A DNA stretch of 64,000 bases, taken from contig OY987245.1 of the NCBI GenBank assembly GCA_963920765.1, forward strand, positions 3,364,727-3,428,726, in the 5' to 3' direction. A program made the position numbers and the translations under genes. A model generated the notes under the pieces. That model did not search any database. It was given only the letters and a program-made list of their open reading frames with translations, and was not told the origin of the DNA. This stretch comes from Ulota crispa. Taxonomy: Eukaryota > Streptophyta > Bryopsida > Orthotrichales > Orthotrichaceae. This document shows positions 3,008 to 35,253 of the stretch, piece by piece. Numbering within the stretch: the first letter of the stretch is position 1; each line of letters begins with the position of its first letter.

Positions 3008-3033
3008 GGCCCTTTCACACCCAATGTTATGGA
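3008..3033 (+). repeat. Left terminal inverted repeat
   Basis: Pairs with 35228-35253 on the opposite strand at 21 of 26 positions, including the unbroken CCCTTTCACACCCA and TATGGA. A related motif, CATTCACACTTGGAGT followed by ACTATGGAGC, recurs 60 bp inward at about 3072, so the end may carry repeated transposase-binding sites. Confidence 0.7.
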
Positions 3034-3256
3034 GCAAACTAGAGAGTCAAAAAGGAGTGCTCTGAGCCTTAGCATTCACACTTGGAGTACTATGGAGCAT
3101 TGAAAATGACTAGAGTCCACAGTGGCATCTTTTAACACTCAACAATTGTTGGTAGTGTTACGATATTGTAATAACTTACAAAAAATAGATGTTAGGATTG
3201 TTGAGGGAGTGTTATGGAGGTGGGGAGGAGTCACACGGTTATTAACCGTATTCGTA

Positions 3257-3273
3257 ATTTTTGCACTTGGCCA
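3257..3273 (+). repeat. Left subterminal inverted repeat with 16-bp palindrome
   Basis: ATTTTTGCACTTGGCCA, identical to the complement of 35012-35028. Here it runs into a perfect palindrome, GCACTTGGCCAAGTGC at 3263-3278; the right copy has only half of it. Position and symmetry suit a binding site for the element's own protein. Confidence 0.7.
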
Positions 3274-3749
3274 AGTGCATTAAACCTACGACAAAATTAG
3301 TGCAATTTTCAAGTTTTGTAAATATGGTATATCAATTCTAGAAGATGTCTCAATTTTTTTGCTCGTAAATTGTGCAATGCAAACCCTCTAACTTCATCAC
3401 CAATAAGGGAAGAATATGTATGATATGATAAAAACTTTTTTTTTTGAATTTGAAAGAATCATTATTCTATCAATATAAAATCAACCACAATCTCAACTAT
3501 TTAAATATACATTGCACATATAACATATTTTTCTTTGTTTATCAAATTTTATTCCATTCATTTCAATCATTTTATCAAAACTCTCCACTTCATTTGAAAA
3601 ACACAACATTATCAATTTATTATCATTTGACCACAAACTTTGAACAAAACAATACAAAGTCATAAAAAAAAAAACCATTCTTTGAAACTACTAAACTAAA
3701 AAAACACACATTAGCTACCATAAATTTTTTAATGTAGCCTATCACTTCA
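3274..3749. other. Left non-coding margin of the large element
   Basis: An AT-rich stretch after the 3' end of the minus-strand gene. It presumably holds that gene's 3' untranslated region and terminus-proximal sequence. No separate gene seen. Confidence 0.5.
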
Positions 3750-6700
3750 CTAATCCACTGTCTCTGGTGTCTCTGCAATAACCCTTGAAGATTGAGTTCC
3801 TATCTCTTCCCCTTCTTCAATATCCATTGATTGTGCGGTAAGTACTGCACAAACTTCAAGTAGAACTTCTGATTCAGCTAAATCTAAAACACGTTCAACC
3901 ATGGCTTCCACTTCTAGAGAAGGTAATCTATCCATGTGTGATGTCTCTTGCAGAACTGATGTGATTTGCTCAAAATTGTACTGCCCTTCAATTCCAGTAC
4001 GACGATATCTAATACCCTCTTGATCGTAAAATAGTCCATCAACTCCTTCTGTCATTGCCTGGTTTGTAGAGGCCCATCCAAAATCCATCCCAAAGAACTG
4101 TGTATCTGTCGCCAACATTACTAGTGTTGCACCTTGTGAGGTTGTTGATGTTGGAGGCAATACCACTTCCTCATATCCATCCACCTTATCTCTCATCTTT
4201 GTATCCACCTCTGTAATAAGCTGAGGTTGAGCTAACTCCTCTAAATCCATGCCTTCTATATTACGCCTTTGTGGATCTACTTCTTCCTCGGCTATAATAT
4301 GTTCTGCAAGATGATCTTTTGTCCAAACCCCAACCATATGAGATAAAACGCCCTCTACACCACTAATTGGCTCTATACCTGCCATTTGTACTTCCTTTGA
4401 CGGCATACGGACCAGCGGTGTCTTCTTCATCTTTTTAGGTCTTTGTTCTTCAGGAATAGTTCTTTCTGATGAATGACTGTCTTGTTGAGATGAATCTTCT
4501 TCTTCCATTGATGAACTAGAAGAAGAATTTGAAGAATCGTCCTCCGAGTTTGACGAATCTTCTTCAGATGTTGATGAACTATTCTCTATCTCATCTTCTT
4601 CCTCTTCATCATGTTGGCCTTCCACATAAGTTGGATCATTATCAACATCATCAATCGCACCCATTTCTCCGATGTCATGGCCTTCTCTAATTGGTGTATC
4701 CTCTGAATGTAAATCTTCACCATCTTCTTCTTCATCATCTTCAACTTCTTCTTCTTCTTCATCTTCTTCTGTTCTTGGATATACCACATGAGATGATGAG
4801 GGTTCCGTACAAGATGCAATGGTCGGTTGAGTCTCTCTTGCCATTGGAATCTCAGTCACTTGTACCGGAGTAGTTGCTACTTGGATTCTTGTAGGATACA
4901 CCTCCTGTAATGTATTGTATAAAAATCGAGTCCGATCTATGGAACCATCCAAGACAATTGCTTGACTACCAACATAGGAAGTTTGTAGTATATCTGATAA
5001 TGCAGTTGTAATGTCCACTGCTACTAACCCCCAGTTCTCCGATAGGTATGTAGCAACCAACCTTTGCAACTCCATAGGAGTTCTCTCTATTGGATCCACA
5101 ATAGCAGGCATCCTCTGTTCGTTCCAAGAATCTGTAAACACTGTAGGTACTTGCTCACAACCTCTTCGCAAATTTTGTACCACTCTTGATGCACTAGGGT
5201 GCACCATCAAAATTGCAACATCTCCTACCGCTTGTACAGTACGCTCTGTTTGCCCATTAAATCGCAAGTCATGAATCTATGTCGGTATTGTTTGCGGTTT
5301 GAACATCCACATGCCTCTTTGCCAAGTACACTCTGTTGGAAGAACCATCTTCTCTCTCATTTGTTCTTCAAAATATGTTCCCAGTGGAAACAAAAACACA
5401 ACTGTCCATCTGTGTACGCCCACCATCCATTGTTGTAACTTTTCTAGTGCTGTATCATATTCAATGTCAGTCCATACTTCATCTTTTCCTCTTGTCCTGC
5501 ACTGTCTGCAATCAAAGATCCACAAGCAAGGACTTCCCAATGCTACTGTCCCATTCGCAAAAAAATCTCTTCTACATTGAATAGGGATATTTCGAGTGTT
5601 ATTTTCTAGAGAGCTGCTTGGAATAGTTAGCTGCCAATCCCATCTTGCCTCATCAATATTTGTCATTTCTCTGCCATATCCATGATATCCAGATTCCCCA
5701 CATTGAAGACTTGCATAATGATCTTTGAGCATTGGAGGTAAAAGAGGGTCAAACCTCCTCAAAGCTTCAACCGTCCTCACTGTAGGAGATGACCAAGCTT
5801 TCTTCATTTTTTTGTCAACTGTTTCTGCAAGCACTTTCAGCTGTCCTCGATGTTGTCCTTCAAATCTGCGCACATTTATGAGGAAAAAATTATCCATAGT
5901 CTGCGGATGTGCACCTCCTGCCTCGACCATCAACCACCGTATGGCATTTCGTACTGCTTCTCTCCATTGAATTTGGTCTGTTATCCAAGCTAAGGTATCT
6001 TTCATTGGTGCATTATTGTTTGCACCGTTGAAAAAGTATCTCTATTGAGGGCGTTTGCCATCAATAATAGGTTTGGCAGCCAATTCCTTTGCCAACTGCA
6101 GGTATTGTGTCTTCGGAACCCTTACAAGTGGTCGCAACCAAATCCTTTCCATCTTTTTCCTGCCTTCCCTCACATCAGTTCCTAGATCCAATGATTTTTG
6201 ACTTGCATACCTCTTCTATTTCCAAAGATCTTCTTTGCCGTACCAAAGATGACCTTCTTCATAGTCATGGCAAACTTGTAAAACAGCTTTGTAAGCAACT
6301 TCATCTTCTTGCCATGCATGACGCGTCACCTTTGCCATCTTTTTGTAGATAACTCCTAAGGAAATGTTGTTTCCAAAAGACCTCGTCCAATGCAAAGCAC
6401 TGGCAGACATTGTTACAGCTCTTGCTTGTTGTACATCATCAGCTCGGACTTTTGGATTAGGCCTACCACATGCTTTCCAAATGGCCCGCAGCTTCACCAA
6501 ATCTTCATTTAGTGTAGTATAAAAATCCCTTTCAAACTCCTTTGCATTTATTCGCACAGAAGCTTCAACCTATACTTTTGAATCATTGTATACAACAAAT
6601 TGAGCCTTCCTCTGCGCAAATATCTTCTTGTACTCCTCTTCCTCAATCAATCCTACTTGGTTCTCCCTTTCTGCTTGTTTGCATGCTTCTACCACATGTT

Positions 6701-8168
6701 GACCATCAACAGGCTCCTAGATTATGCAGTCTTCTAACCAATTGATCCTTGATTTACTGGGATCATCAGGAATTGCACTACCATGTTGTAAGTATGCACC
6801 CTCAAAGTCGTTTACAGCACCAATTTGTGAAAATGGAATCTCTCTTTGCACTGGACCACCATTTTCATCTATACCCTCCATAACATAGGCAATTGGTCGT
6901 AACGTGAGTGGTGACATGTTGGGCTCTTCTCTTCCACTAAGCCGTTTGTACATAGATATAACACGCTTATCCATCAATGCTCAATGATTTGTCTCCACAT
7001 TCTCTACTGTCCTGATGTTTGTAATTTTTGCATGGAAAACAAAATCCATTCCCCAAATATACCCTGCCAAATAATCATCGTTTGTTGGAAACCTTACAAG
7101 TGGACCAACAGCTGCTGAAATATGAGCAACACGGGTCTCTTCATCATCAAAGGTTGCATCGTTACTTTCAGATTCTTCATCATGTTGAACTTCATTTTGT
7201 ACCGCACTTACATCTCTACGTCTGGTAGTTGCTCTACTCCTTGGAGCTACTCGAGGACGTACTCGGCGTTTGCTTTCCCTTGCTCCTACACGTTCTGGTA
7301 TAGTTCTTGCTTTCCTTAAAGACTGTGGTCTTGCTAGCCGTTTTGCAGCCACTCTTGATGATTCTGCTCGCATAGGTGGTGGCTGAGGTAAAATGCTCAC
7401 ACCAACACCTATAGACAACACTGTACTAGTATCGCCATGGGGTGATGTCAAATTGCTATGTGGAACAACTCCTCCCAAAACACCTTCTCTAGATGACAAA
7501 GCATCCACCCGTCCCCCGCGTGGCCTCCTTCCGGGATTGCTTCTCACTGTTTGATGTCCCACAATTGCTGAAGAGGGTTCATTGTTTGCAACTACTCTTG
7601 TTCGACCTTTGTTGGACACAATAGGCATGTTCACCAAAGCTGCAAGTATTTTGTATATAAGATCTATCTCTTTAGGTTTGCAAGGTGGTGTTTTATCTCA
7701 AACACTAGAAGCATCTATTCTCTGCATCTCTTCATATGCCAAACTTTCTTGAACATACTGTTTAACTTTCAAAACATCTTCTGCACTCAATCTCAAGAAC
7801 CTCTGCACTGCTTCATTACGTGCATGCTGAAGTGATTCTGGCATGGATGTCCAATGATCTTGAAGCTTTTGTATAACCCTGATGGGATGGTCAATAGTCA
7901 AACAAATAGATGGAATCGATGCCATCATCAAATTCCTTTGCAATTTGAACCGTGTCGTACTTCCTCCTTCCATGATCACATTCATGAAAATTTGACCCTC
8001 CAAACCAGTAGTAATGGATTGCAATTTTCCTTGCTCGTTGCCCAATGCGGACCAATGCCGCTCGTTTTGCATCACGTGCTCTGTAATCCATAACACTGGC
8101 GCATGTGCGTCTATTGCCTGAAGCCACCATCCATGTTCAAGCCATTGATTGTGTGTTTTGCGTGCCAT
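3750..8168 (-). pseudogene. 1,472-codon partner protein of the large element, stop-interrupted
   Basis: One frame reads from ATG 8168 to TAG 3750. It is broken by TGA at 7698 and 6981 and by TAG at 6717, 6570, 6216, 6042 and 5277, with no frameshift; the stretches between stops read as good protein. I do not recognise the family. Order of parts: about 150 residues with many Trp (NQWLEHGWWLQ); a basic, Arg-rich block around 7200-7560 (RRPRGGR, SKRRVRPRVAPRSRATTRRR), probably nuclear localisation or DNA binding; a mixed middle region; a compact domain at about 5570-5170 with LWIFDCRQ, RWTVVFLFPLGTY, TWQRGMWMFKP and VGDVAILMVHPSASR; a long Asp/Glu then Ser-rich tract at 4790-4480; and an acidic C-terminus. 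The alternating strands of the compact domain resemble a Rossmann methyltransferase with an altered motif IV, which is only a guess. A possible splice acceptor (TTTTGATAG) 7 bp upstream of the ATG leaves the true start open. Probably a transposition partner of the DDE protein at the right end. Confidence 0.75.
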
Positions 8169-9245
8169 GATAATCCTATCAAAACAACATTAATATTGGA
8201 ACTTCACAAAAACATCCCATAACATTCTCAAATCCATTCATGGTAGCCACTTCTTTAAAAATTTGAAGCCCTCTTACTATTTTAAAGCAATATATAAATT
8301 AAAAAGGTTCTTTATCATGTGTAATTGTATAATCATCTATGGTGTTGATAGATGAAAATCTATTCAGAGTTCTATGACAATGGACCACGTAAACTATACA
8401 AAGCTCATTTTTCTAAAAAATAGAAATCATTCTCTTGCAATTTTGGTAACTACATTTTAATACGTAAAATCCTTTTGATGTTAAATTTTTGCTATTCAAA
8501 GTCCTAGACATTTAATATACTTAAATGGAATAGTACCAAACTATAATTTAAGAAATACAACAAACAACATTACTTCTGTACTTGTCAAAGAAAATTTCAT
8601 ACAACGTTGTCTACCATAAATTGTATCAAGCATGTACACAATTACCTTATTCCTATATCTAATAAGAATTACAAAAGAACTAATTCTTGTTTGAATATAA
8701 CTTCAAAATGCATAATGAACTACATATAAATAAATCCCGTGCTATTTTCCATTCTAGAACTTATTAAGAAAAATTACGTACTTCATTATTTTTAAACAAC
8801 AATGCTATAATTGCCTAAAAGAAAAAGCTTTGGACCTATTACATTCATATTGGTAGTGCTAATTAAAAGAATAAGTCCTTCCAATGTATTAATAAATAGT
8901 GTTCTTAAGTATAAAATTTTGATTTAAAAAAAAAATCAAAATTCTTTTTTTCTTTTTTTCTTCAAAGATACTTTTATTTTTTGATTGAAAGAATCGTTAG
9001 TTTTGGTCAATAGCACATACCTCAAATAACAAATCTAGTATATATAAGTAGGTTAAACTGGTGTTGATGATAATGAGGATCTATTTTCCTCATACCTTTA
9101 TTTATACTAGGTTTACATTATTTTACTTTATTTTTAGTTAATTTTTACTTTATTAGGATTCATATCCGCTTTGCTAGTGGATGTTAAGGCATGTATGTGT
9201 CTTGTCCGTGAAAATTTTGGTCAACAACACAAATTAAAATATAAA
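8169..9245. other. No gene seen (upstream of the partner gene)
   Basis: Very AT-rich, with no open frame worth reporting. It should contain the promoter of the minus-strand gene, but no clear TATA box could be chosen. Confidence 0.4.
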
Positions 9246-9659
9246 GGGAATTGATATGTGCACATCGGAGGTTGATATATGGACACTCCCCTAGGGGGTA
9301 AAGTATAGATTTCTACCATGAAAAAGCTAAATTTGAGATGTTTGAAATCAAATTTGGACTTAGAGAGCATGATTTAGTTTAGAACCATAAAAGGGGTTGA
9401 AATTGAACAACACCCAATGAAAAAACTTAGATAGGGGGAAAAGTATTAGTTTCACTTTTGTTTGTAAAATACAGGTAAGCTTTTTCATTGGGTGTTTTTC
9501 AATTGCAACCTTTTTCATGGTTCTAGACTAAATCATGTTCTCTAAGTCCAAATTTGAATTCAAACATCTCAAATTTGGCTTTTTCATGGTAGAAATCTAT
9601 ACTTTACCCCCATGGGGGGTGTCCATATATCAACCCTCGATGTGTACATATCAATTCCC
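9246..9659. mobile_element. 414-bp foldback MITE
   Basis: Arms of roughly 185 bp are inverted over nearly the whole length: it starts GGGAATTGATATGTGCACAT and ends ATGTGTACATATCAATTCCC. Inner landmarks mirror each other, for example TTCTACCATGAAAAAGC and GCTTTTTCATGGTAGAA. Flanking AT-rich bases suggest, but do not prove, a short target duplication. Short GGGAATT ends are shared with the elements at 37701 and 38150. Confidence 0.85.
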
Positions 9660-11108
9660 AATAAAAATGCCATGGACATGATTTTACATCTATAATATAT
9701 ACATCATTATTATTTAGGCCTACTAATAAATATGGACTCAAGTAATTGATCGTGACATGGAATTCTAATTGCCTTATAAGCTTTGTTGTAAGTTATAATT
9801 TTGTATTATTCACTAAAATCAAGGAAGATGTACTTTGTATTCAGGTCTTGTTATTTCTTCAAAACTACTACCTTTGTGAATGTTTACAAAATTTGACACA
9901 TAGCCTCTCCAAATCACATCTATACAATTTTGTTTTCAACCAAATCATATTACATTTCAAAAATATAACATTTCTGCAATTACAATGTTAAGATGATTAA
10001 ATTCAAAAAGTTCCTCAATAATCTATACTCTTCAAAAACACTCAACAATGTTTGCTTATAGCCAACACTTCAACATCTACTGAGCTTTTCCATGTTCAAC
10101 TCAACACATTCTTTAAACTAATGCATTTCACTAATAATCAAGAAATCACAATTAAACAAAGTGTAGGCTTTCAAGTTCAACCTATATTTACATTCACATA
10201 TGCAAATATGCATCCATTAACTCACCTACAGTTTTGTGCCAGTCCAAAAGTAGAGTTGACAAGTAGAAGACCTTTTTGGATTAATGTTTTGAAATTCTAC
10301 TATTTGAAACTCCTGAAAAACAAACAAGCAAGAAACCACTTTTATTAGAAATAATAGGTACCACTACTTAATAATTAAAATGAACAAATAATTTAGTACA
10401 AATCTTTTTTTAGAAGGTGATGATAATTCAGACAATAGAATGGTAATAGATAGTTTATCTATTGCCCACTCACAATAGTCATGTCAAATTTAAATAGACA
10501 CAATTTTGATGGCCTTTCAAGAACTGATCAATAAAAGATTAAACTCTCTATTTGAAGATATAGAATTCTATGTAAAACTCTTTGAAATAAATTATTTAAG
10601 TGCTAGATGAGAAGTTCATTGAACCACACATCATCCAATACAGTCCATTTGCAATATCATTGAGCTTTGAAGTTTCAATGAAAATTCAATTCAAATTTAT
10701 GAATTAAAATGATTCTCTTTATATGCCATGGGTATCCCCCTTAGGAACAAGTGGCTTTGGAGCAAACCCCCTCCTCATGTGCCAACACAAGGAGCCTCCA
10801 TGCAAGCAACGTCACCATAAGGAGTTGATCCCAAAACCTCATGGACTCCATCAAAAGCTCCTTACCACTTGGCCATCACCTAAGGTAATTTCACCCTTAA
10901 ATGTACAAACGGTCTCCAAATTTGACAACTTCTAAAAATTTGTCATAAATTACTATTAGAAAGAGTAATTTGAAATTGACATGTAAATGAAAGTTGTAGA
11001 TTTTGAATTTTAGATTCCGTCCATATGGTTCAATTGTAGATTTCAAAATTTAGGTTCCATCTATATGGTTAAATTTACCAAAGTTATCACCATTATTTTA
11101 GTATAAAT
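9660..11108. other. No gene seen
   Basis: An AT-rich spacer inside the large element. The open frames (for example 10052-10348) have no recognisable content. Confidence 0.5.
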
Positions 11109-12054
11109 TTAACCCCTAAAGGCCCAAGCCCTTTTTTCTGTAAAAATCACTGAAAACTGCCACTTTTGGAGGAATGAGTAGAAAAGTAGGAAAACAAGTT
11201 TGTTTTGGAAATCCAATCGTAGGATCATGTTCTAGACTATGGGAGGTACTTGCTAAAAAAAAATTAGCTCAATTTAGATGTAGAGGAGTGAAATATTGAC
11301 ATCTGAAGTGCAAAAATAAGTTTTTTTTTCCTTGCTGCCCAAAAATTTAAGAAGCCTTTGACCTCTCCTATATCAAAATAGTTGCTTCACGCAAAGTTGG
11401 AATATATTTTTCCCATGTAGGAGACCAAGTTAGGTAAGTGTGGGAGGATTTTCAAATGAATTGGAGGTGTGGATCATAATTTGTAAAATATTGCAGTGCC
11501 GTAAGGCCATGAAATTTGCATATACATTGGGCAACATTGGAGGATTTATGTAAAATTGAGAAATCCAAATTACTTTGATCCAAATAGTAAAAATCATTAG
11601 GAGTCTTAGTCTACTCCAACTTGGAAAAAAAAAAGCCAAAAAAAATTTAAAGCACAAAATTTTACAAGGGGCAAAAGAAATGGAGATTTGGGAATCCAAT
11701 ACCTACCCGCAAACTAAAACTTCTTACTCATCAATCAAAATCAAATGATTTAAAGCTTTCCACATATATAATAATCAAAAGAACCAATTTCAGATTTTTT
11801 TAATAAAGAAAAAAAATTTTAAAGAAGTTATTTGGGCTGCCCAGACTGCTTGCCCCTCCCCTGTTGTTCAGAAGTTCATGCATAACTTCTTCAATAATTG
11901 TCGCAATGAAGAAAAAATTGGATGTGCAAGTACATCTTGGAATTCCCCACCATCCACAAAAATTTCAAAAAAGGTATAAAAACTGGTTTATTCATAGGTA
12001 CATGCTCGAGGTCCATTTGTCCCACGAGGGGACACTTGGGCCTTTAGGGGTTAA
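11109..12054. mobile_element. TTAACCCCTAAAGG-ended element, 946 bp
   Basis: The left end TTAACCCCTAAAGGCCCAAG is matched perfectly in inverted form at the right end (12035-12054). The interior is non-coding and shares blocks with 21544-22477, 44246-44700 and 55551-57126 (for example AAAATCACT..., CACTTTTGG and CATGCATAACTTCTTCAATA), so these are one non-autonomous family. Confidence 0.8.
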
Positions 12055-12286
12055 AAAGTAAAAGAATCAAATTCCTTCTAAATTTGATTACAAGCAAAAT
12101 ATTAACATTTTGTGAGTACAGGTTGTTGGAGTGGATTTGAAATGATTATACTGACATGGTGATTTCTTGGATTTTTTAGGTTTTTTAAATCTATAACCTC
12201 ATTTTTTCAGAACCACTTTTGAACTAAAATCAATGCAATTGACAACTTGACATACTTCTAAACTTGTTATTTTAGAAAAACATATA

Positions 12287-12640
12287 CTCCCTCCGTCCCA
12301 AAATAATCTTCCTATTACACAAAATGTTATAGATTATGCTCAAAAAGAACCGTTTAAAAAAATTTGACCTATGAATAGAGTTTGATGTCCTCCTATTGTT
12401 CTGAAATTTGAGTTTCAAATTAGTTTTCAAACTGTGGTTTCAAAGTGATTGGAAATTGAATTTTTGAGGCATTTATGAAGATCATCGGTGACCACTCACT
12501 TGATGGCATGGGATTTATTAGCATGCCCATGCTTTTGAACTATGTGCAAGTGTTGCTAGCTCTGTTCTTCCTCCAACAAGAAGATCATTTTGGAACACTA
12601 AATAAAGGTCAACCTGAAGATCATTTTGGGACAGAGAGAG
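12287..12640. mobile_element. Stowaway-like MITE, 354 bp
   Basis: It begins CTCCCTCCGTCCCAAAATAA and ends ATTTTGGGACAGAGAGAG, flanked by TA on both sides (12285-12286 and 12641-12642). CTCCCTC-type ends and a TA target are the hallmark of plant mariner-derived Stowaway MITEs. Inner mirror blocks include GATCTTC/GAAGATC-type motifs. No coding capacity. Confidence 0.88.
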
Positions 12641-15600
12641 TATTTTAGTACCACCAAATCCAACCATTGGATAGGACCACAACTTCATACAATACCTCTA
12701 AAAATTGGGTTCACTTTCATCCATGCAATAAATGAGAGAGAAAAGAGAGTTTGAATTTTTCATCAGCTTGAAAACGTCTCTTGTGACGCTTAGGGGTTAA
12801 AGTCATTCCAGACCAATATCTATGAAGTTATGAAAAACATTCACATGTAAATCCATGAAGAACCTAAGAGCCTAATTTGGCCTGTTTGGAAACTTGGACA
12901 TGCCCTATGGACCTCACAAAATGGAATTGAAAAATTCTCAAAAATTCTCAAAAGAATGTGATACTAGTGGATGTTATCACCGTATCATTTTAGTCACAAT
13001 TCTAAGAACATTCTATTTTTTTTTGCATGTTTGTTCTATGACTTTTATTTCTCACAAAAGAGTACCTTCTACTTTATAATTTTTTATAAATGAATATGAA
13101 GGCTGTTTTTATTGAAATTTTTAAATGCATATTTTCATTCATTTTCTCAACATATTAAATAAAATCCACAAGTCACAAGACCAATTATATTGGGGCTAAA
13201 AAATGTTATAAGAAAAAACCCTATCATTTCAGCATTTGGAATGACTACAAAATAAAATGTTTCAAAGTTTATGCACGCTTGACTTGCAATTGATGAGAAT
13301 ATTTACTCTAAGGTTTTCAAAGATTGTATTTCAATAAATTAAAAAAAAATTAATATGGTACGAGTGCTTTCAAACTATAAATGGATGAATTCTTTATCTT
13401 CTTTTAGTGATGACTGTATTTCAGCATTTTTTGGCCTTCACACTATAGAGTTAAAAGGCTACAAAAAAAATCAAGCAATTTTTTGGGGGGGGAATTAGAG
13501 TATAAGAGAACTTGCTTGTAAATAACGTGGATTCAAAAGCTGAAATGCATTCCACATACAAGGAGGCAATGGTTAGATTGATTGTACAGTCCATAATCTT
13601 TGCTGCAATAGTTTAATAAAAAATTAGTAGCTTATTAGCTTGTTCAAAGGATTTCAAAAAAACCCTTAACTTCAAGATGAAAGTACATAACTCTATTGCA
13701 AGATCTTGATTTTATTGTCAGTATATGCTAATTATCATTAGCTTCACTTGTGTAATATTGACGCAAAGGGGACTCAACAATTATTTACAAAATTCAACTT
13801 CAAAAACATTGAAATTATGATTGAATGTCTTGAATGGTTCATTAGATTAAGAATTTAGTGTACAATAGATTCAGTTATATCTTTTTCTAGGTAATGCTAA
13901 TCATGAAAATTACAATTGAGATTATTTCTTGTCTTGAACAACAATATCTTAATAATGGCACTTGAAGTTATTCAAATAAGAGTATATTATTATGCTTTTC
14001 TAAAGTAATACATTTGAAAAAATACCTTTTCAAAGATGGCAGCTTTAAATCCTACAAATTTGATGTCCATAAGTACATTTAGTTTGGTTGCCAGTTGCCA
14101 CTATTCACCTCTTAGAGCTTGTACAAACGTATAGTCTTGCAATTCAACATCACGCACAAAAATGTAGTTATTTATTTGCAATCTTCCACATCCATAACAT
14201 TTGAGTAATGAGTAGACAAGTCAATTATTACACCTAGAAAGAAATAAGTAGTTTTCCAAACTTCTCTTCAACTATTTACATAAAACTATCTTTATATACA
14301 AAGCTTGCTCATAATTTTTTAATTAGACATTAATTTACAACGTTCAATCATGAATTTCAAAATCATGATTAACTGCCATATGCACTTAGGAACAAATGAA
14401 AATAAATCAATTGAAAGATTGTGAGAATATCACAATCTAAATTTGTAATTAATAAAATTCTTCTTCATTGCTATCTATTACCAATGAAGACTTTTTGACA
14501 TTAAATTTTTTTAAAGTGAAGTCGAACAATTCATTGCATAGCGTAACATATTGTAGAGTACTTGCTAATAGCAGCTAATCAGACCCTTCAAGTGGGACGT
14601 CAACGTCGCTTTTTATTGCTTTGCATCCTTCAACTCTTTCTATCAATTCCTCATACCAAAGATTGCCTACATAGTCACATCATTTCTAATTCCCAAACCA
14701 CAAAGAAGCGGCTGTCAATGGGAAATTCAATTAGGAGTCATATTTCTACACACTAGCCAAGCCCAAGCAACAACCATTCATAAAACTAGAAAATTTTGTA
14801 CAATCACAAGATTTGAGCAAGGAACAAAAAAGGTGCAACTGCTTTGTAGGCTATAACTGACAAAAGCATGTTGTGGTTGCGTAAGTTGTCTTCTCCCTAT
14901 ACAGAATGTTTAAACTAAACTGTTTAATCAATTAGGATGCTTTATTCCAAAAAAATTACTTTACATGCCATCAACATTAAGATGTACTTCTATAAATGTT
15001 TCCATTTGTATTCATTGGGTTTCATGATTGCTAATTACTACAACACCTAATTCAAAAGCATTGCATTCTTGTATTGTAGTTGTGAAAATTTATGTAGTGT
15101 CAAGTGTTAAGAAATTAGTGTGAGCAATCTAATTTGACTACTTTGTGTAGATACAACAAAAGATTGCCAACCAAAGATAAACCTTTGTAATGTTACATGC
15201 TTCACACATTTTAGTTGAGATATGTGATTGCAAATTCTCCTTTAATTTTTGCCATTTGAATCATACTATTTGAGATTGTATCTAAATATTATAGGGGTAT
15301 AGTAACCTAAGTTACTAATTAGTCATTTTACAATTTTGCCTAACAAATTCACTTGTTGCTTGAATTAGTGCAGACTAGCATTATTAGTGTAGGGCACAAT
15401 AACTTGTATAGCTCTAGTTTTAAACTTTTGAGTTGGTTTAAAAAAAATTGATGTTTAAAACTCCTAATTCATTACTTCACGCTACATTTGTTAATTGTAG
15501 AATTTTGCAGACTTATGTCCACAAATATAGTCTATAGAGGACAAAATGAAATTGTTTTGTGCTTAATGGAGTTATAAGCATGATGGTAATCCAAACAATT

Positions 15601-23144: not shown

Positions 23145-23718
23145 TGCTAAATTTTAGGTTTAGTGGGTTGGACTTGCCCTAAACTTAGGGAGCTTCAAAA
23201 TTAAACTTTTTTCTAGTGACTCTCGTTGCAATTCACCTCTATGAATTCACTAGTGAATCACAAGGTGACTCACCTTTGGTCTTCACTCCTAACATGGTTC
23301 ACGCGAGGAGTGAACTTCAAGAACTCACTTTTGTGTCTTCGCGTGGCTCATTCACTTGAGTCCTCAAACCCCAAAACTTCTTTCACAGAAACTTCCACAA
23401 ACTCACGTGTGTCTTAGACTTAGCGCGTGCAAGGGAACAAAAACAATTCACTAGTGAGCGGAGATCCTACAAGGTGAGAAGTTTGAAAGCCGGATTTTGT
23501 GTTTGAAGCCCCCTATTATTGTGCCCCATGGCCAACTCACATTGGGCCTTTTTCTTTTTTGCGGTTGCAGATAAACCTCCGCAAGCCAATTTCGGTTCAT
23601 GAATTGGACTATTACAAAGGAGGCTCTAGATCAGAGACTGGCCTACTGCTAGAACATTTCAGCTATTTTTGACGTTAGTTACCCTAAACCTTGAATCTCA
23701 CAGGGTCTGTTCATTTTT

Positions 23719-24460: not shown

Positions 24461-25287
24461 GCTAAAGGAGCAGTTGTAAAATGTAACATAGAGGAATCTT
24501 TTGGATTGGTTTGCAAATAAGTTATAGATATTGACTTTTAAACGACAATCTATATGGTGGTATTTACCAATATTCTCATGCAAAAATCTAAAATTCCAGG
24601 TCCAAAATTCATTCTATAATGATTACAACAATAAAGAGTGACTAAAACAAAGTGAAATTGTTGAAATACATTTGAGTATAAATATTGTCTCATTGTAGTA
24701 ATTTTCTTTGTTTCTATATTTGTCTCTAAAAGCTCAAATTTTCAAAAGCACTAATAAACTAGAATTAAATTTCATAGCGTCTTCACATAGCCTTATTTTT
24801 TAATTTCTATTTAAGTGTGCAATCTAGCAATGTTCAGTATTGTTGTCATCTTTTTTCAACTATCATGAAATAATAATAAAAATCACGTTAACTCCTAAAG
24901 CCCAAAGGATGTTGCAGAAAAAAATAATACCAAAACTGCCATTTTTTGATGATATATTTCAAATTATAAAAAATAAAAAAAATAAAAAATAAAACTTGAG
25001 TTTCAATCATACAAAAGTGTAATATACAAGTAAGGAAATGTGTGCAAAAAAATTCAGCCCAAATGATCATGTAGATTGTAAGGTAATGTTTGAAGTGAGA
25101 GAAACAAATTTTCTTTATTCTTGCAAAATAGGGTAGTAAACATCAAGCCTTTCTAAAGGAAAATCTTTGTTGAACTCAAAAAAAAAAAAACCATTCAAAA
25201 GTGTATGATGCTAGGTAAACTCATGAAAAGTTACAGAAGCAGATATAGAATCTAACCTATTCTAAATAACCCTGCAATACAAGGAGG

Positions 25288-25519
25288 TTAACCCCTGAAC
25301 AACCCAAAAGCCCTTTGCAGCCGTATGTATAGTCTTATGTATAGACGTATTTGAGTTGGTTTGAGGGCTTTCCAAAAAAAATTATGCATCCACCATCATA
25401 CAACCCTTCAATATGTATGGTTGTAACACTTAATTTCTAACTAATTCAAACTTCTAAATATTGGTAGCGACCGTATTTGATATCGTATCTCTAAAGCCCA
25501 ATGAACCTTCAAGGGTTAA
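25288..25519. mobile_element. 232-bp MITE, partner of 59517-59815
   Basis: The ends are TTAACCCCTGAAC and CCTTCAAGGGTTAA. The interior (AAAGCCCTTTGCAGCCGTAT, ACCATCATACAACCC, TATGGTTGTAACACTTAAT) matches the complement of 59517-59815. Confidence 0.75.
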
Positions 25520-28500
25520 GTGAATTGAAAATACATTTGTAATTTTTTCATTATTTCTTGTGCAATGAAGAAGTCTTTTATTTGAAATCTAAACAGTGAA
25601 TAGTTAGAGGCTTACATTTGGAATATTTAAAAAAAGTTTCAAGAACTTTGAAATTATAGAATGCAAGATGATGGGGCTTCAATTTAGAATAAACGATTTT
25701 TCCTGAAACCACCTTCACAGAGTTGACAAAGTTTGACTCCTCTTAGATTGTGGTTTGTAAGCTCATTATATTTTTATTTTGGATGCATTTACACCATATT
25801 TTAGTAGCTACATAAATGCCAAAGTTCAAAAGTTCATGAAAGTTTTAGGGTAAAATTCTCCACAGATGCCTTCACCGCCAAGGTGCCCAAATTCTTGTGG
25901 GCAAAATAACTTTTTACTTTAGCATCCAATCAAAGTTTATTTTTTCTTCACACAAAGACGTTCATTGTGTGCACCTTGTCTCATAATTTTAGAAACATTT
26001 GCAAGAAATTGACTTTGTAGGAATCTACCCAAACTTTCAATTGGTTATTGAACGAACAATTGTGGTTTAGGGGTTAAGAAATGCTTTTGCTTGTGAGTAT
26101 TGAAAACTGGTTGGAACTTACGTCTAATAAGAGTTCAATGAATTTTTTGCCAAACTTGCCCTCATTAAAACATTACGTTCACCAAAATGAGGATGAAAGT
26201 TTGCTACAACAATTGATTTTATGGATGAACAAGCAATTGTGGATGATTATATCTAATGATTTTCTCACTTGCATGTATTTGAAATGTGCATTTTGCTTGA
26301 ATAATGAAATACTAAACAAATTTCCATGAGCACGTGCCATAGAGTGACAACCAATACTCATCAAGCAGTAGCTTGGAATGTGCTTGTAACTTGCTGTAGA
26401 ATTGCTGAAACAACCTCCAAGTTGGGGGCATCCAAGGCCACCACAACGGCCTAGCCACATGTTCTTTCTGGAGGCATAAGCGTTCCCTATGGAACAGAAG
26501 TTGTGGGCCAAAAATTGCAAAAATGTCATATTGGCATGAGGGGTAGTTGAACCTTCTCTAAAAATGAAATTTATGTGAAGAATGAGAAGTCGTCAAATGA
26601 AAATAGGATGGATATAGGAGTCATGGGAGCACTTCTCCATTCAAAAAGTGTAACTCTCTTTTTGTTAGCGATGGAGAATGGAGAGTGAGTTTAGCTAGAA
26701 AGTGGTGATATGGTAAGAAAGAATGTTGTATTCATCCTCTCAATTCAGGTCTCCAACTACTAGGAGAGTGAAAGCAAAAGAGCAAGATAAAAAAGGAAAA
26801 CACATTGGTAATATTGTCATACACTCAAAGTTATTTACTATCATTCATCTCTATTGGAGGTGAAGAAAAAACTTCTCAATCTTCAAAGAATGGGATCTTC
26901 ATAAATCAAAAAGAGAGTGACACGTCTTCATTCTTTGAAGATTGAGAATGAGGTGAAAAAGATGTAACTACCTATTAGCAAAGACCACCTCAATTGTCAT
27001 CCATATCTTTATCTTTGAAATGACATATTTCAAAAACAATCTAGTTAGGGTTGCTTTCATTTTTGAAACACTAGTGTTTCCTTCTACAATGTCCAATTTT
27101 GTAGGGGTCAAAGTTGGGAGTTCAAGAGAGAGACATTTGTCTTCACATTTCCAAAAATATGACAACCATCCATGTAGCCACATGTAGCCAAATGACAGTA
27201 GTTTCTAGGTTTCCTTAAAATATTACTCAAGAGGTGAATTTTGTGAGTTTTGCATATTTTTATAACACAACATGCTTAGTGTAATAAACAACAAGAACAT
27301 TGTCTCCCCCTTTAACTTCCAACTGTGATATATATTGTTTAACATTTTTAAGATTCCTTGTCATTATTTTCATAATTTTGGCACAATGTAGTTTTTTAGA
27401 GTTTTTCTTTGCAAATAATTTATGGTTAAACAACACAAGCATGTTTCATCTCATAAATCAACTAAATTGGTTAAAAAGTAAAACTTCAAATATGACTCCA
27501 ACGAAGGAGTAACATAATTACTCTAAAGAACAAACAATTGCAAACTTATCATGTTGTCTTGGTGATTAAATAAATTTGTGTGAATTGCTAACATGTAGTC
27601 ATTTGTGAAAAGAAATTTGAAATTTGTGTTTTGTTGGTATATATCTGTGTGTATACTTTCATGGATGCAATCAATTGAGTATAAGTCTGCATCTTTTGTT
27701 TGCAATTTGTGGCTCTTTTTTAATTGTACTTTATAATACATCTTCAACTATTTTTAATACTTGGACTACCTCCAAAATCTTTGGGGAATCAAAGAACTAC
27801 TTTGGTACACAAATAGTATCTTGTATACTTGTTTTTTATAGGTATTTTGAGATCCTAGAAATTACATTATCTTTTGCACTTAGATTGTTATTTAAATCAT
27901 ACTTTTTAAAATGAAATGAGGAATTGATATTTGTACCACCTTTTTTAACTATTCTAGCACATCCTTTATATATGCCCAATATTTACGATATCATAATAAA
28001 TGTGAACCAGGGGCAAAACATCACTAATTTGAAAATATTATATGACATAGAAGTTGCAATTTCAACTCGGTGTTTTAGTTCTAAATCCTGCTCATACTAT
28101 TGAATTAAAAACCTAAAATTATACTTAGCATAATTTAGGATGCATTTTAGTATAATTTATGATTTTTTTAAATTACATTATATTAGAAATTGAAAGGGGA
28201 TCCCCTCAAACTATGTAGGTGTTTTACATAGTCATTAAATGAGGAAATTGTGAGTTGTTGAATATGGTATGCAAAAGCATTACAGACTAACACTTGATTA
28301 TCCAACAATTTCATGTATTGATCATTGACCTCTTTTGTTATTAATATCATACTATGTTCTTCATCATTTGAATATCTCCCTCTTTTGAACGCATAATAAG
28401 GCAGAGGTTATAGGTGACAATTACATCAATATTTATATTATTATTTAATTTACTCTTGAACCCAAACCCAATCTTGACTCAAATAGTAATCCTAATCTTA

Positions 28501-30178
28501 ACCCCCTATTTATAATTATAGATTAATATGGAACATGCAATTGATATGGGATATTGCCCTTAACATATTTATACGTGTATTCATATTTGTGAACATATCC
28601 AAGATGAATGGTTTGAAAATTAATTTCAAGTTTTTTTTTTGAGCAAAGCAGTAGTTTACAATTTTTGAGAATTGAAAATGGGATGTTAATGAATACATAT
28701 TGTTTGCGTCTTTTCAGTTGTTAGTAGTCCAAATGCACAAGCAAATGCATTTATTGTATTTGGGTACAATAAATGATGGGTAATGCACTAAACTATTTAC
28801 TAAAACAAGATTTTTATAAAAATAGTAGACAATGAATCATATTTAGAGGCTTGAAATCTTATTAGGCAATAAAAAGTAATCTTATAATGAGCTCTGCAAT
28901 GGACATGCAGTGGTTTATTCATAGAACCTTATTTACTTATTGATTTAATTAGAAAAAAAAAATTACTGCAAGAATCAACCATTTTCTTTGTTTTTTCAAT
29001 TTGTTTGTGGAAGTTCTACGTGAATGTTTTATAGTAGATCTAGAATCATGAATAGGAACCTACAACACATCTTGTTTGAAAATTCATGAGTAACTCACTT
29101 TGCTTCCAAAAAAACAAAACAATTTGTTTTACATTCAATTTTTGTAATTGTTTGTCTAAAAAATGTGCTAAAGATATTTACATTCAAAAAATCACATGGG
29201 AGAAAGGTTCACTAACCTTCAAATGGTCAATTCACAAGTCTCTAATCTCAATATTACTTTACATTAACCTTTTGTTTATGAATATTTAATTTAGATGTGA
29301 TTTTTTCTTTATTGTAAATGATGTGTACTATGTGATCTTTTGACATTCCGTTTTCTTTAATGTGCAGATGTTATGCGTTCTGAATAGCCATCAAATTGAA
29401 ACTACAGGATAAGAAATTCCAAAATCAAACTGCATATACCATTACATGTAGATATTCAAGTATATATATTTATTGGTACTATAGATTGATTTTTATAAAT
29501 GATTTTTAGTAAAGAACAACATATAGAAATTCTTAAATGCACTTGAACAAGAAACATAACAAAATTTGTGAATTTATCCTATAAAGGACAAAGGCAATTT
29601 TATTTTTGAAATAGATCAAAATTGTCTTTCCTATTGCGGTCGAGTAAAGGAATAAAACAATATTTTTTAATATTTATTTGTTGAATCTTGTACTTTGCTT
29701 GTCCACAATCATGGGAATTTTTTTTCATGAAAGTTGTCCTCTGAGAATGGAAGATAATAGCATTCAAAGTAAAAAAACAATCATTTTTGAATGTTGGTCT
29801 ACAATTGTAGATGGCTTTCACAGGTAGTGTTGAAATTATTTTAGCAATATTGACATTGGAATAAGTGATTTCATATTGAATGATTGAGCTAAAGTCTATG
29901 ATAAAATGTTACAAAAATAGCATTTGATTTTTTCTTCTTTAAATTTTTTTTAAGAATGAGGTAGTCAAAAACATAATGAAAAACTAAATTGTTAATAGCT
30001 CAAACATAGGATTGAAACAAAGTATTCTTCAATGCTAAATTTTTAATAACAAAGGAGTTTAACCTTTGCACCCATTTTTTCGGGAAGATGAAGAATTTGC
30101 ATTCAAACTTGAGTACTATAATTTACTATAAAGAAAAAAAATGCTTAGGTTGTCCACAGAACATAATTCTAAAGTATA
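25520..30178. other. No gene seen; one short perfect hairpin
   Basis: AT-rich interior of the large element. Open frames up to about 115 codons (26179-26529, 27624-27914) show no known motif and have the composition of random AT-rich DNA. Confidence 0.5.
26873..26948. repeat. 20-bp perfect hairpin, 36-nt loop
   Basis: TTCTCAATCTTCAAAGAATG at 26873-26892 and its exact complement at 26929-26948. A second, outer inverted pair (around 26,646 and 26,908, CAAAAAGAGAGT) overlaps this order, so it may be the remnant of a larger foldback. The stem is about miRNA length, but nothing else suggests a miRNA gene. Confidence 0.6.
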
Positions 30179-30751
30179 CTCCCTCTATTTCACTAAAAAC
30201 CCCGTATTTGAGAAGTTGTGAAAGATTAAGGAATATTAACAACAAATTATAATAGGAGGTTATTGGATATTAAGCTTAAACTATTCCAAATCCAATTTTA
30301 GTTTTTTTTAGAATTAAGGTTTTTTTTAAAAGAGAAGAAATTAGTACTAAAGTTTTGAAATTGAAGTGTTTTATTATTGTCTCAAATAGTTAGAAAATTG
30401 ATTGATATGAAGTGTGTCAATGCAACTATTAGTAAAAAATGCATTACCCTAGGTGTCCAAGTCGTCCCATCTATCAAAAAACCAAATATTAATGTTGATA
30501 CTATTGATGATTCTAGCTTAATGATAAGGACAATGTGCAAACAGAAATCACTAAATCAAGTTTGCATTCCTAACATTAGCAATTGATGAGCATGAAATGC
30601 TCCAAAAATATCACCAAACATGCAAAGCAACTCACTTTATTTTAGAGATAAGCAGAATTTTTTTTTAAAACCACGTGAAAAGACAAATACATATTTATAT
30701 TTGAATCAAAAAATAAGTCAGAACACTAGTATTTTAGTGAAATAGAGGGAG
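30179..30751. mobile_element. Stowaway/mariner-like element, 573 bp
   Basis: It begins CTCCCTCTATTTCACTAAAA and ends TTTTAGTGAAATAGAGGGAG, a perfect 20-bp inverted repeat, flanked by TA on both sides. Longer than the typical MITE. A 69-codon open frame at 30377-30586 (MSQIVRKLIDMKCVNATISK...) might be a scrap of a mariner transposase N-terminus, but I cannot confirm it. Confidence 0.88.
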
Positions 30752-31384
30752 TACAATAAGATATTTTTTAGGAAGCTGAAATCAAAACCTTGGAATTTAT
30801 TGTAATTCAAACGTTAAAGAAATTGTGAAGATTGAATAAAGTAGAGTACAAAACTGAATTGAACTTCTTGTAACAAGATTTTTTGTATATGATTGTTGAT
30901 TTTACTTCTTTTATGTATGATTTATCATATATCATTTTTACTAGAATTGATAAAATTAATACAATATATGCCCATGTTATATGAATTATAAATGATTTTA
31001 TAGTTTTCAAGAATCATTATGAAACTATAACCCATATTGTAATTGAATGAAGAAGATAGAACAAAATTGAGAATGGAATTACTATAGACTTTGTTGATGA
31101 AACTATTGAAGTATAAATAATGGTAGTTATGCTTGAACTATATGAAGTTTGAAAGTGAACTAGTACATGATAATAGAAGTGATTGTATTATTTGTAATAA
31201 TGCCTATTAATTGAGTGTTTTTTTCATGCTATCTGCTTTAGTATAAGGAACTATGCTTATGGAAAAGAAGTTCAATTGGCATTCAAGGCAAAGTAGGTTG
31301 TACAAAACTTTTGATTTATAGAAAATGAGTGTATGTCATTATTTGCTACCCTAATACATTGATATTCACATTTGAATAATATAA
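30752..31384. other. No gene seen (upstream of the DDE gene)
   Basis: AT-rich. It should hold the promoter or a first intron of the plus-strand gene. An acceptor-like AATATAACAG ends at 31387. Confidence 0.4.
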
Positions 31385-34300
31385 CAGCAAAAAAAAACAA
31401 CAACTGTGGATATTGGAGCTTTTGGAAGTCCAGTAGCACTGCCATTGATTTCTTCAGAAGGAAGACCTACGAGACCAAGTGTTGGGCAAAGATTTCTTTG
31501 AGCTCGTTGTGCTCTACTCTTTGAAGGTGGTGATAATGCAAGACAACAAACTACAACTAAGGGAAGAATAGGCACTATGGAGCTTCTTTCAGAAATTGGA
31601 GCAGTGGTTGCAATTGGAGTTATTGATGCAAGTATTATATGTGGAATGGAGTTACACTACGTCAAACTTTTTCCTCATGAGGTGGCTGTATGTGTGTTGC
31701 ATGTTGTAGATAAAGCAATGTGGACAGGGGAGTTAGTGGAGGAGCGTCTTGGTCAATGTGTGGGATTGGTGATTTGTTGGCAAAAATCAAGAGTTCGTAC
31801 TACAAGAGGAGAGACAACATACAATGCAAGAACTGGAGGAGGACAGAATTTTACCTTTTCACGTACAGGAACATCTGAATTTGAGTTCCATGAGAGCAAT
31901 AGTAGTCCAAACCCATCAGAAGTATCCTTGAGCAGTCTTGGCTATAGTAGCAACCCTCAACAGAGATCTCTGAGAATGAACCAATTAAATAGCTTTGGAG
32001 GCAATGAAGAAGTTAGAGATGGGTTACCAAACTCTACAAGCACTCAAAGTTATTCTATGGCTACCCGAAGGAGACGAGAACATAGACCCCGTGTTAGAGG
32101 AGAACCACTAAGTCAAAAAGTGACATTGCAAAGTGTAGTAGCAGCCAAGCATAAAGGTGGATGCAAACAAAATTGTTTGACAGAAGTTGATGACAAGTAC
32201 ATTCTGAATCAATAATACATGGCATGGGGACAAAAGTACGAGCTTCGATCAACTTGGATACTACAAATGTTGAGTGCTTTTTACAAAAGAACTGAAGAAG
32301 GAAAGAGAGATAAATACAAGACTAAATTAGATGGCTTCCATGTTTGCAATGTATGCTATGCCACAGCTCTTGGTTACTCACAACGGCAATTCAAGCAATT
32401 GAAGCAATCACAACAAGTATATGGAAGAGTGGCTGTAGTGCATGGAAATACATGCCACTTGAGAGAAGGAGCAAGATTGTCTGCAGCACGTGAATGTTTT
32501 GAAGAGTTTGTAAAAGAAGCTGGATGCACACAACCTCACAGACAAATACGAAGAAAGCTAGACAATAGCATAGTGCCGTTGATTTTGTTATCTATGAACA
32601 CAACAAAGGTGGATGTGTTTCACTACGTCAATGAAGAAGTGAAACAGATGGTGGATGGAGAGCCATTGTCCCTCACTTCCTTCCATCGGTTGTGGCGCGA
32701 GGAATTTCCGCATGTACAAATTCCACCATACTTCCATTTTTCAAAATGTTACCATTGCTGGGAGTACAAGTGTGGGATGGAAGCTACAACAAATATGGCA
32801 GCCCGTGAGGAGATAAAGAAGTGGTACTTTATACACATCCAACATCAAATGGAAGAAAGGCGTGATTATTGGTCGTTTAAAAGGTCAGCAATGATTACGC
32901 CGGATTTGTATATATGTTTGATAGTGGACGGCATGGATCAAAACACAACCATGGTTCCGAAGATGAGGCAGATCGTAAAGAACATAGAGTCATGTTTTGT
33001 GAAAACTCATCTTTGTGGAGTACTAGTGCATGGAATTGGATTGTATGCAGATGTGTGGATAGACGCACACCACAAGCATGACAGCAATCAAGTGATAACC
33101 TCAATCATGCATGTGCTTTCTGATGTACGGAGAAGAAAGAGAAAACTTCCACCAACTTTGCGAATTCAAGCAGACAATATAACTCGCGAAAACAAGAACA
33201 TATACATGTTTGCATTATGTGCAGCACTAGTAGGCCTAGGATACTTCCAAGAGGTGCAATTGTATTTCCTAATTGTTGGCTACACACATGAAGACATTAA
33301 CCAACGGTTCAGCATTATTTCAAACACGTTGAAGAGGACAAATATTGACTCTTTGGACGAGTTGTTGTTTTTGGTGGAGAAAGGGACATCTTACACATAG
33401 ACATTTGTCAGTGTACGAAAACTAGAGAACGTTCCGGATTGGAAGTCATTCATCACACCACACCTTTTGAGGGGAGGAGAGCAATTGACAAGAATAACAT
33501 TTTTGCATCACATGAGGTTCTACATGGAGAATGAAGTGCCTAGAGTTCAACACAAGCACTTTAGCAAAGACACTTGGGGACCAACAGAAGGACACATGTG
33601 TCTACAATCCTTACCTAGTACAATGGAGAAACCAGCTCTAGCAGAGGTGTTTGCAGCAGATGAGAGAGAATTGAGGGCATTGCAAGATTTTATTGTGTAC
33701 AAAAACAAGTGTATAGAGAGGGAAATACATGTGGAGAAGAAGCATGAAGCAATGAAAAAAACAGAGGATTTCATCACGTATTTGAAAAGATTTCTCTCTA
33801 TGGATAGAACTGTAGAGAGGGACCAGCCTTTTTGGCCATCAGAAGTTCAAGGAAATGACATGGAGAATATAGAGTTCATTATAGTTGGAGCTGCAGAAGA
33901 GGAGTCAAATACAATGTCTACTATGGTGGATTCAATCATGGCAACAATGCCAAATCCAGAAGCACAAGGATACTTTGGTCCACGTAGAAATAAACCTGTA
34001 CAAGCTTCTGGAACAAGGGCTCCAAGAAAAAAAATGATAATTGAAGGGACAGAGACAACTGCAACAAGGAGCGCAAAAGAGGGGCAAGATCCGTTTCTGG
34101 TGTTTGAACCAGAGAAAGACCTTCAAGTTGGACAATTTGTAGCCCTCTCAATAGAGCCAACTGAAGTAAGAGCAGGAGTACCATTTTATTTGGGGAAGGT
34201 TTTAGAATTTGGTCAGCGGAAGTGGGCATCAAAGATGAAGGTTATATGGTACTGGCCAATTCTAAGATTGGGAGCTAGAAGAGGAGAGAAATCAAGCACA

Positions 34301-34576
34301 TACCGATATATGAATTGCTTGGAAGCATCATGGGAGCCATCTGGTGAGAGCCACGGATGGGTTGAGAAAGATGCAGCAATATTTTCATGGGAAGACATAC
34401 CTACAAGAATAAAAAGTGGATTTGTGCAGGATAACAATGTACTAGTTCATGGAGAAGTTACGGAGGAGAAAATCAGTATCCTAGCACTTGCAAAACCTCA
34501 TTTGGTAGAGTACATTGCGATGCAAGTAAAGGAGTTGGACAATGAGCGAATGCAAAATGACATACATGCATATTGA
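31385..34576 (+). pseudogene. DUF7869-type DDE transposase-like protein, stop-interrupted
   Basis: One plus-strand frame reads from about 31385 (first ATG 31577) to TGA 34574. It is broken by TGA at 31499, TAA at 32213 and TAG at 33398, with no frameshift; text on both sides of each stop is protein-like. The core matches what I know of DUF7869 proteins: a Cys motif VCNVCYATALGYSQRQFKQL; a second Cys/His cluster HFSKCYHCWEYKC; LIVDGMDQN (Asp codon 32927); LRIQADNITRENKN (Asp 33173); and VGYTHEDINQRFS (Glu 33290). The last three fit a DDE/RNase H-fold catalytic triad. The C-terminal part (about 34,110-34,400: VGQFVALSIEP, PFYLGKVLEF, KVIWYWP) resembles a small barrel of the Tudor/BAH-like kind common in these proteins. 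The N-terminal 200 residues are low in complexity with a basic RRRREHRPRVRG block. The frame runs toward the right end of the element and ends about 680 bp from it. A transposase role is inferred from the triad, the termini and the repeat context. Confidence 0.82.
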
Positions 34577-34699
34577 AGAATGATATGATATTTACGAGGA
34601 CTTAAGTAGAAGAGTGGTATATTTACTATGAATTGTTGTAGTGATAGACATGAAGTTGGCTCAATTGAATGTATATAACAAAGTAGCAATTTTTGCTTG

Positions 34700-34702
<3 letters not shown>

Positions 34703-34749
<47 letters not shown>
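34703..34749. repeat. (AT)n microsatellite
   Basis: An uninterrupted alternation of A and T over about 47 bp, just after the 3' end of the DDE gene. Confidence 0.95.
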
Positions 34750-34750
<1 letters not shown>

Positions 34751-35011
34751 CAAAATTGGTCTACCGAGATCAATCTAGTATTGAAATGCAGTAGCAAAAT
34801 TGTGGAGTTGTAAATTTCAATGATGTGTGTTGTATTTTTCATTGTAAATGGAGAAAAAAATTGGCATAAATGCTACCATTTCACAAAACAAAAATGATGT
34901 TTGGTTTTTCAATTTTGTACAAATACAAAATTTTAAAAAATTGCAAAGTGGCCCCCCCTTATTGGAAATGAGGCTTGTTTTGCTTGTACGGTGTGTAAGG
35001 GCAATTTTATA

Positions 35012-35028
35012 TGGCCAAGTGCAAAAAT
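35012..35028 (-). repeat. Right subterminal inverted repeat
   Basis: TGGCCAAGTGCAAAAAT, the exact complement of 3257-3273, 225 bp from the right end. The palindrome seen at the left copy is only half present here. Confidence 0.7.
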
Positions 35029-35227
35029 AACAAATTCCATGTTTTAAGTTAGTTGTTAACATTGTTGTTGCTTTATGTAAAACTCTAGTGTGAACCTCAA
35101 ACAAAAGATCTCTCAAAATATTTTAATTATTGCAATGTGATTTAGTTTCAAAATCAAAGCTGTGTATGTGAATACAAACTCAGTTTTTAAAGGCGACCAG
35201 TACTAGCTAGTGTCTAGTACTGCATTT

Positions 35228-35253
35228 TCCATAGTGCTGGGTGTGAAAGGGGC
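35228..35253 (-). repeat. Right terminal inverted repeat
   Basis: Read on the minus strand it begins GCCCCTTTCACACCCA and continues to TATGGA, as at the left end. The next bases outward (TTTAAGTG) do not match the left flank, so no target duplication is visible. Confidence 0.7.

Follow-up and report, generated by a model that had tools for sequence, protein, structure and literature searches.

The window, by which we mean the whole stretch of 64,000 nt analyzed here, covers C4:3364727-3428726 (OY987245.1) of the Ulota crispa assembly GCA_963920765.1, and the genome searched was this 275-Mb assembly of 157 contigs. Two large genes that face away from each other lie in its first half, between inverted repeats, and Table 1 gives their coordinates together with those of the other features of the locus. 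The initial annotation had described both 3′ ends as pointing outward, about 740 and 680 bp inside the edges of a single element; the left gene does end 742 bp from position 3008, at 3750-3752, and the right gene stops 677 bp short of position 35253, at 34576.

Table 1. Features of the two-gene locus (positions in the window).
Feature	Position	Strand	Basis or remark
Target MITE, left part (left end of the element in the initial annotation)	3007..3241	+	Aligned with L079, L080, L002, L007
Left target-duplication copy, TTA	3239..3241	+	MITE empty site
Two-gene transposon, window copy	3242..35043	.	MITE homology breaks and terminal motif common to related copies
Left terminal inverted repeat, including palindromic GCACTTGGCCAAGTGC	3242..3280	+	Common to 5 window-type copies
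Left gene, about 1475 codons, one frame, 7 internal stops, no frameshift	3750..8177	-	Without convincing family match
Conserved C-terminal domain of left protein	4893..5867	-	Alignment A1; beta-class methyltransferase-like, degenerate, by eye
Palindromic insert	9246..9659	.	Absent from four collinear copies
Insert with high-copy repeat of about 945 bp	10892..12796	.	Absent from four collinear copies
High-copy repeat inside element	21544..22477	.	Seen in window copy
Insert of about 220 bp	25292..25512	.	Absent from three collinear copies
High-copy repeat	30181..30751	.	Not at this point in three collinear copies
Right gene, about 1051 codons, 3 internal stops; presumed transposase	31421..34576	+	Alignments and Pfam
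DUF7869 domain (Pfam PF25273) of right protein	32993..33565	+	E 1.7e-45
Right terminal inverted repeat	35012..35043	-	24-bp match to left end, 91.7%
Right target-duplication copy, TTA	35044..35046	+	MITE empty site
Target MITE, right part (right end of the element in the initial annotation)	35044..35254	+	MITE alignment

Four further features were seen elsewhere in the window: a partial auxin-binding protein (717-1127, minus strand) and a ribosomal protein L2 C-terminal domain (62304-62990, minus strand), both apparently belonging to host genes, an ATAG tandem array of 113 copies with 100% match (37012-37463), and a broken Tc1-like transposase (57514-58569, minus strand) with a DDE_3 match and a Tc3-type HTH match, the latter below its cut-off. 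Tc1-like elements have been reported in plants (PMC4054914).

Boundaries of the element and its target MITE

The initial annotation had drawn the element from 3008 to 35253, with 26-bp inverted repeats as its ends. These outer repeats are present, with 21 of 26 positions matching, and their core, CCTTTCACACCCA, gave 110 matches in the genome versus 5 for a reversed-pattern control. When other CCTTTCACACCCA loci were aligned with window positions 2700-3300 and 34950-35600, a MITE of about 430 bp emerged, intact in L079, L080, L002 and L007 and flanked by a TTA or TAA duplication in all four. The left flank of the window tracks this MITE as far as ...CACACGGTTA (3241), and the right flank picks it up at TTAAGTTAG (35044); the empty site is ACGGTTAAGTTAG, and the intact MITE copies align across it without the 32 kb. 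Since MITE homology breaks off at 3241 and continues from 35044, the MITE has been split by a 31,802-bp insertion that duplicated TTA. The window element is therefore 31,802 bp long, occupies 3242-35043, lies inside a MITE and is flanked by TTA.

The boundaries 3008/35253 belong to the target MITE, and the empty site led us to reject them as ends of the element. The missing target duplication, which had been recorded as a gap, was sought at the MITE ends instead of at 3242/35043, where the empty-site comparison reveals TTA. Homology among copies does stop inside 3008-35253, an outcome that the initial annotation had regarded as damaging to its proposal, and it stops at the inner repeat, which marks the true ends. 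That the element extends from 3008 to 35253 would agree with the match between the outer repeats and with their symmetric distances from both genes, but the outer parts are what lies on either side of the break in a MITE, intact copies of that MITE do not contain the 32 kb, the homology of the other two-gene copies ends at the inner repeat, and no outer-repeat site was found at the ends of C6a, C8a, C3a and C1i among 100 of the 110 sites; we give this delimitation practically no chance.

The perfect 17-bp inverted repeat described earlier as subterminal was found as reported (ATTTTTGCACTTGGCCA at 3257-3273, inverted at 35012-35028; C4:3367983 + and 3399738 - in the genome), at 249 and 225 bp from the outer ends; it makes up the core of what is in fact the terminal inverted repeat (TIR). 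Allowing one mismatch at most, it matched the genome 73 times, versus 2 in the control.

In the window the MITE itself is flanked by TGA (3004-3006) and TTA (35255-35257), which differ by one mismatch. PIF/Harbinger-like elements make 3-bp TTA/TAA target duplications, as found at 4/4 intact copies of the target MITE. The Harbinger label for this MITE is doubtful, however, because its TIR also adjoins other DUF7869 genes: in a survey of 100 of the 110 TIR sites (the two of the window included) and 110 DUF7869 sites on C1-C10, from which C11 and some second pieces of single loci were left out, 8 of 98 listed sites with the TIR CCCTTTCACACCC lay 0.6-1.7 kb beyond a DUF7869 3′ edge, all 8 downstream of the DUF7869 match and in the orientation that an outer end should have. 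A second DUF7869 family of the genome thus seems to have the target MITE's TIR. It differs from the window family in its TIR, and its MITEs have 3-bp TTA/TAA duplications; the left gene was not found beside CCCTTTCACACCC-type DUF7869 elements by tblastn (21 left loci).

Copies of the element and linkage of the two genes

Searching the 275-Mb genome by tblastn with the right-gene domain gave 18 loci at 63-100% identity, pieces of one locus being merged in all locus counts, and matches near 40% were other DUF7869 genes. A piece of the left gene, searched in the same way, gave 21 loci. The left gene was present 13-47 kb from the right gene at 15/18 right-gene loci and was divergent from it in 15/15. 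At C8b both genes are present, 76 kb apart and in the wrong relative orientation, and C5o and C10 have the right gene without the left one. The left gene has no normally placed partner at 6 of its 21 loci (C8b, two loci on C3, and a single one on each of C11, C8 and C9); at one of these, C11:6186480, a DUF7869 match lies 10 kb off on the same strand, that is, in another orientation. The orphan C5:21953396 has one adjoining right-end match.

Both ends were located in nine copies including the window, with lengths of 17.9-31.8 kb and one end beside each gene, so that at least eight further copies, on different chromosomes, carry both genes between shared ends. The compact copies measure 17,881 (C3), 20,895 (C1), 21,709 (C4b) and 20,885 bp (C6b), and the window-type copies, from their end positions, about 24.7 (C1i), 30.4 (C8a), 31.0 (C6a) and 31.5 kb (C3a). 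This survey of ends left out C8b, C10, the left orphans, the left side of C2b, C9, C2a, C6c and C5b, and took C5 on its right side only. Left and right halves occurring independently with second ends of their own, which the initial annotation had named as evidence against a single element, were not seen in the copies whose ends were examined; 3/18 right and 6/21 left loci are without a partner in the normal place.

The boundaries of the compact copies C1, C3, C4b and C6b agree within a few bases on both sides, and compact-copy ends (for C5 the right side) read AACACCAAATTTGC or close to that. The window-type copies C6a, C8a, C3a and C1i end in AACAC or AACAT/AATAG, followed by the 17-mer or a near match. 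Flush target duplications of 4 bp (GTGC, GTAT) were found in C3a and C6a and of 5 bp (AATTG) in C8a, with 0/20 mismatched flank pairs in each control; C1i gives TTA only with the boundary moved by one base, whereupon 1/20 control pairs matches too. The four compact copies showed no duplication of at least 4 bp, and their 3-bp matches, all AAA, were no better than the control. No uniform target duplication was found; where one is seen, its length varies from copy to copy (3, 4 or 5 bp).

Short relatives exist as well, since eight inverted 17-mer pairs lie 0.39-1.9 kb apart and represent short pairs with similar ends. Over 84-85 bp, two of them, compared along their full sequence, match the window right end at 76-79%, and they also carry the palindromic left motif; the other six were examined at their ends alone. 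A clear target duplication was not found at the short derivatives.

Between the genes, window positions 8200-15,941, 20,995-21,495 and 24,514-31,210 are collinear with C8a and C6a at 78-88% identity, and C3a is collinear, within the same range, with most of 8200-15,941 and 24,514-31,210. The C11 copy is collinear only for the first 4.7 kb. Positions 25,892-27,182 are common to the window and C3a, and C8a and C6a lack them; no collinear partner was found for 15,942-20,994, and 21,496-24,513 was covered only by one repeat-swamped comparison. The initial annotation had considered the element bloated by nested insertions. Four inserts of the window copy do add about 3.1 kb, and at least one further high-copy repeat lies inside the element, but the subfamily is itself large: three other copies measure 30.4-31.5 kb, which makes large size a property of the subfamily. 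The middle of the window and compact C3 yielded no convincing common protein by tblastx. Compact C3 and C1 are 84-90% identical near their ends and about 71-75% in middle patches, and the left identity step adjoins a small inverted-repeat insert.

The two proteins, their past selection and their decay

The right protein matches DUF7869 with 155.4 bits in the window, against a curated cut-off of 26, and the domain was found in 10/10 family members scanned. Candidate acidic residues D506, D585 and D625, a triad placed by eye, are kept in 17/18, 13/18 and 15/18 copies, and we infer that the protein is a DDD/E RNase H-like transposase. No viral relatives of it were confirmed. A match to PDB 7lo5, a DNA methyltransferase (E 0.015), was discarded, as it falls on residues 139-267, by eye a Ser/Gln-rich linker. 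In the whole genome DUF7869 gave 157 matches, counted as pieces, and the domain was not found mentioned in the open-licence literature. Contig C11, which may be a sex chromosome, holds at least 31 of these 157 matches in 6.3 Mb, 2.3% of the genome.

The left protein had only weak, scattered matches in Pfam and PDB (best Pfam E 0.018), none of them a ParB or a DNA methyltransferase, and its conserved domain gave no convincing match in NCBIfam or PHROGs. Compared by hhalign with YhdJ and eight phage methyltransferases, the domain scored a probability below 1%, and the same domain of a compact copy, searched against phages by tblastn, gave five matches at E 4, none a methyltransferase. A single-sequence structure prediction of the domain reached a pLDDT of just 32.5, too low to be of use. 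By eye, three stretches of the domain resemble motifs IV, X and I. The alignments used had 13 (A1), 10 (A2) and 10 (A3) rows. Compact copies have a non-matching stretch of about 0.7 kb, an intron or an insert, before residue ~771 of the left protein, and residues ~575-770 are missing from six of these copies.

Both genes have been under purifying selection between subfamilies in the past: dN/dS was 0.11-0.30 for the left and 0.13-0.33 for the right gene (from 11 of the 21 left-gene loci and 10 of the 18 right-gene loci), the ratios being rough because many between-subfamily dS values are saturated. Within subfamilies dN/dS was 0.31-0.76, which indicates that recent copies are mostly dead. In C1i and C2b (L044, L024, L045, L020), dS to the window was about 1.2 for the left halves versus about 0.5 for the right halves; this unequal divergence (1.21 versus 0.47 in C1i) suggests that halves may have been exchanged.

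Before the final stop, the window has 7 stops in the left gene and 3 in the right gene, and at least three were present in each of the 20 left (of 21 loci) and 18 right copies aligned, several of which were covered partly; all aligned copies are thus decayed. Stops fell on columns with a W, Q or R majority in 127/210 cases on the left and 96/147 on the right, as counts without a null model, a pattern consistent with the C-to-T/G-to-A changes expected of methylated repeats. Many columns have stops in several copies, such as left residue 399 with stops in 7. Programmed stop codons are unlikely, as the stops lie mostly at W/Q/R columns and none is common to all copies.

Relation to known transposons and possible role of the second gene

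We consider it very probable that the locus represents a large cut-and-paste DNA transposon family with two divergent genes near its ends, and the proposal that a DUF7869 protein, which we read as DDE-type, and a second large divergent gene form a single mobile unit held up, the unit being repeated on many chromosomes. The right protein would act as a DDD/E transposase on inverted repeats of about 24-30 bp, and the left protein would be an element-borne accessory that binds or marks element DNA and may help transposition or counter silencing; short elements with similar ends would be mobilized in trans.

Several giant elements offer comparisons. Soybean Tgmt* has 20.5 kb, encodes a transposase and a presumed DNA-binding protein, and has a 3-bp duplication (PMC2613891), and red-algal EnSpm elements have 16-20 kb and 4-5 ORFs (PMC6431247). 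Like the window family, these are TIR elements, with sizes of about 20 kb; unlike in CACTA/EnSpm, the genes of the window family are separate and divergent instead of forming one spliced unit. CACTA-type termini were not found, the ends reading AACACC, TTAACCG and AACATGG, nor was a tnp2-type transposase domain, DUF7869 alone being above cut-off. Sola elements, which are also found in Physcomitrella, have a DDD transposase and 4-bp duplications and are in some cases longer than 15 kb (PMC10741241). Compared with this 4-bp duplication, window-type copies have 4 bp in 2/5, 5 bp in one and 3 bp in the window, and compact copies none of at least 4 bp. The Sola1-1_Ec32 element of Ectocarpus is 21.5 kb long and has a ParB-methyltransferase gene opposite its transposase; for most giant families, the source reports nested insertions that are fixed among copies (PMC12477816). 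The window element is likewise large and has a second large gene on the strand opposite its presumed transposase, whereas the Sola1-1_Ec32 accessory has recognized ParB and DNA methyltransferase domains, none of which is matched by the window left protein. A divergent accessory gene is thus already known from giant transposons.

Two single-gene transposons standing back to back by chance could account for the three right-gene and six left-gene loci without a normally placed partner, and for the unequal divergence of the C1i halves from the window. This is most improbable, since 15/18 loci are linked in a fixed orientation, each of the nine copies with located ends has the same pairing of end and gene, and the middle is collinear between copies. 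If instead the left gene were a captured passenger without a role in transposition, one would understand that no domain is recognized in its protein, that 157 DUF7869 matches face 21 left-gene loci, 15 of them paired with a close right gene, and that the left gene at C11:6186480 has its DUF7869 match 10 kb off in another orientation. The presence of the left gene at 15/18 close right-gene loci and its purifying selection across deep divergence make a mere passenger somewhat unlikely.

A possible identity for the putative accessory comes from the giant algal Sola1 elements. The left protein could tentatively be read as a ParB plus methyltransferase accessory of their kind that has lost the catalytic DPPY. 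Its gene lies on the opposite strand, as in Sola1-1_Ec32 (PMC12477816), and is divergent at 15/18 loci, as expected if it were a ParB-methyltransferase accessory gene, which in a giant TIR element faces away from the transposase strand; by eye, it encodes a ParB-like NHR...PVDGQH stretch and stretches resembling motifs IV, X and I in that order. Recognizable ParB and N4/N6 methyltransferase domains were not found, however: the Pfam, NCBIfam, PHROGs and PDB searches were negative, hhalign stayed below 1% against nine bacterial or phage methyltransferases, and the identification is unsupported by any of these five. The methyltransferase reading predates the comparison with the PMC12477816 element, and the ParB reading came later; with the methyltransferase tests negative, the combined reading stays a lead. 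A wider scenario, which we regard as rather unlikely in its entirety, is that DUF7869 elements constitute an undescribed land-plant transposon superfamily, one branch of which became a two-component machine of 20-30 kb; the partner in it would have a ParB fold and a dead methyltransferase domain, and would read or shield element DNA and not methylate it.

As the initial annotation had stated for plant elements, we did not find this gene pair described in the open-licence literature, and the literature searched yielded no land-plant TIR transposon that approaches 30 kb and carries a constant pair of large genes. Soybean Tgmt* has 20.5 kb, and the other giants there are algal. The family ties DUF7869, a transposase-like domain common in this genome, to a large partner under selection, and it provides a test case for two questions: is a second protein required by giant elements, and do land plants have a relative of the methyltransferase-type accessory of algae?
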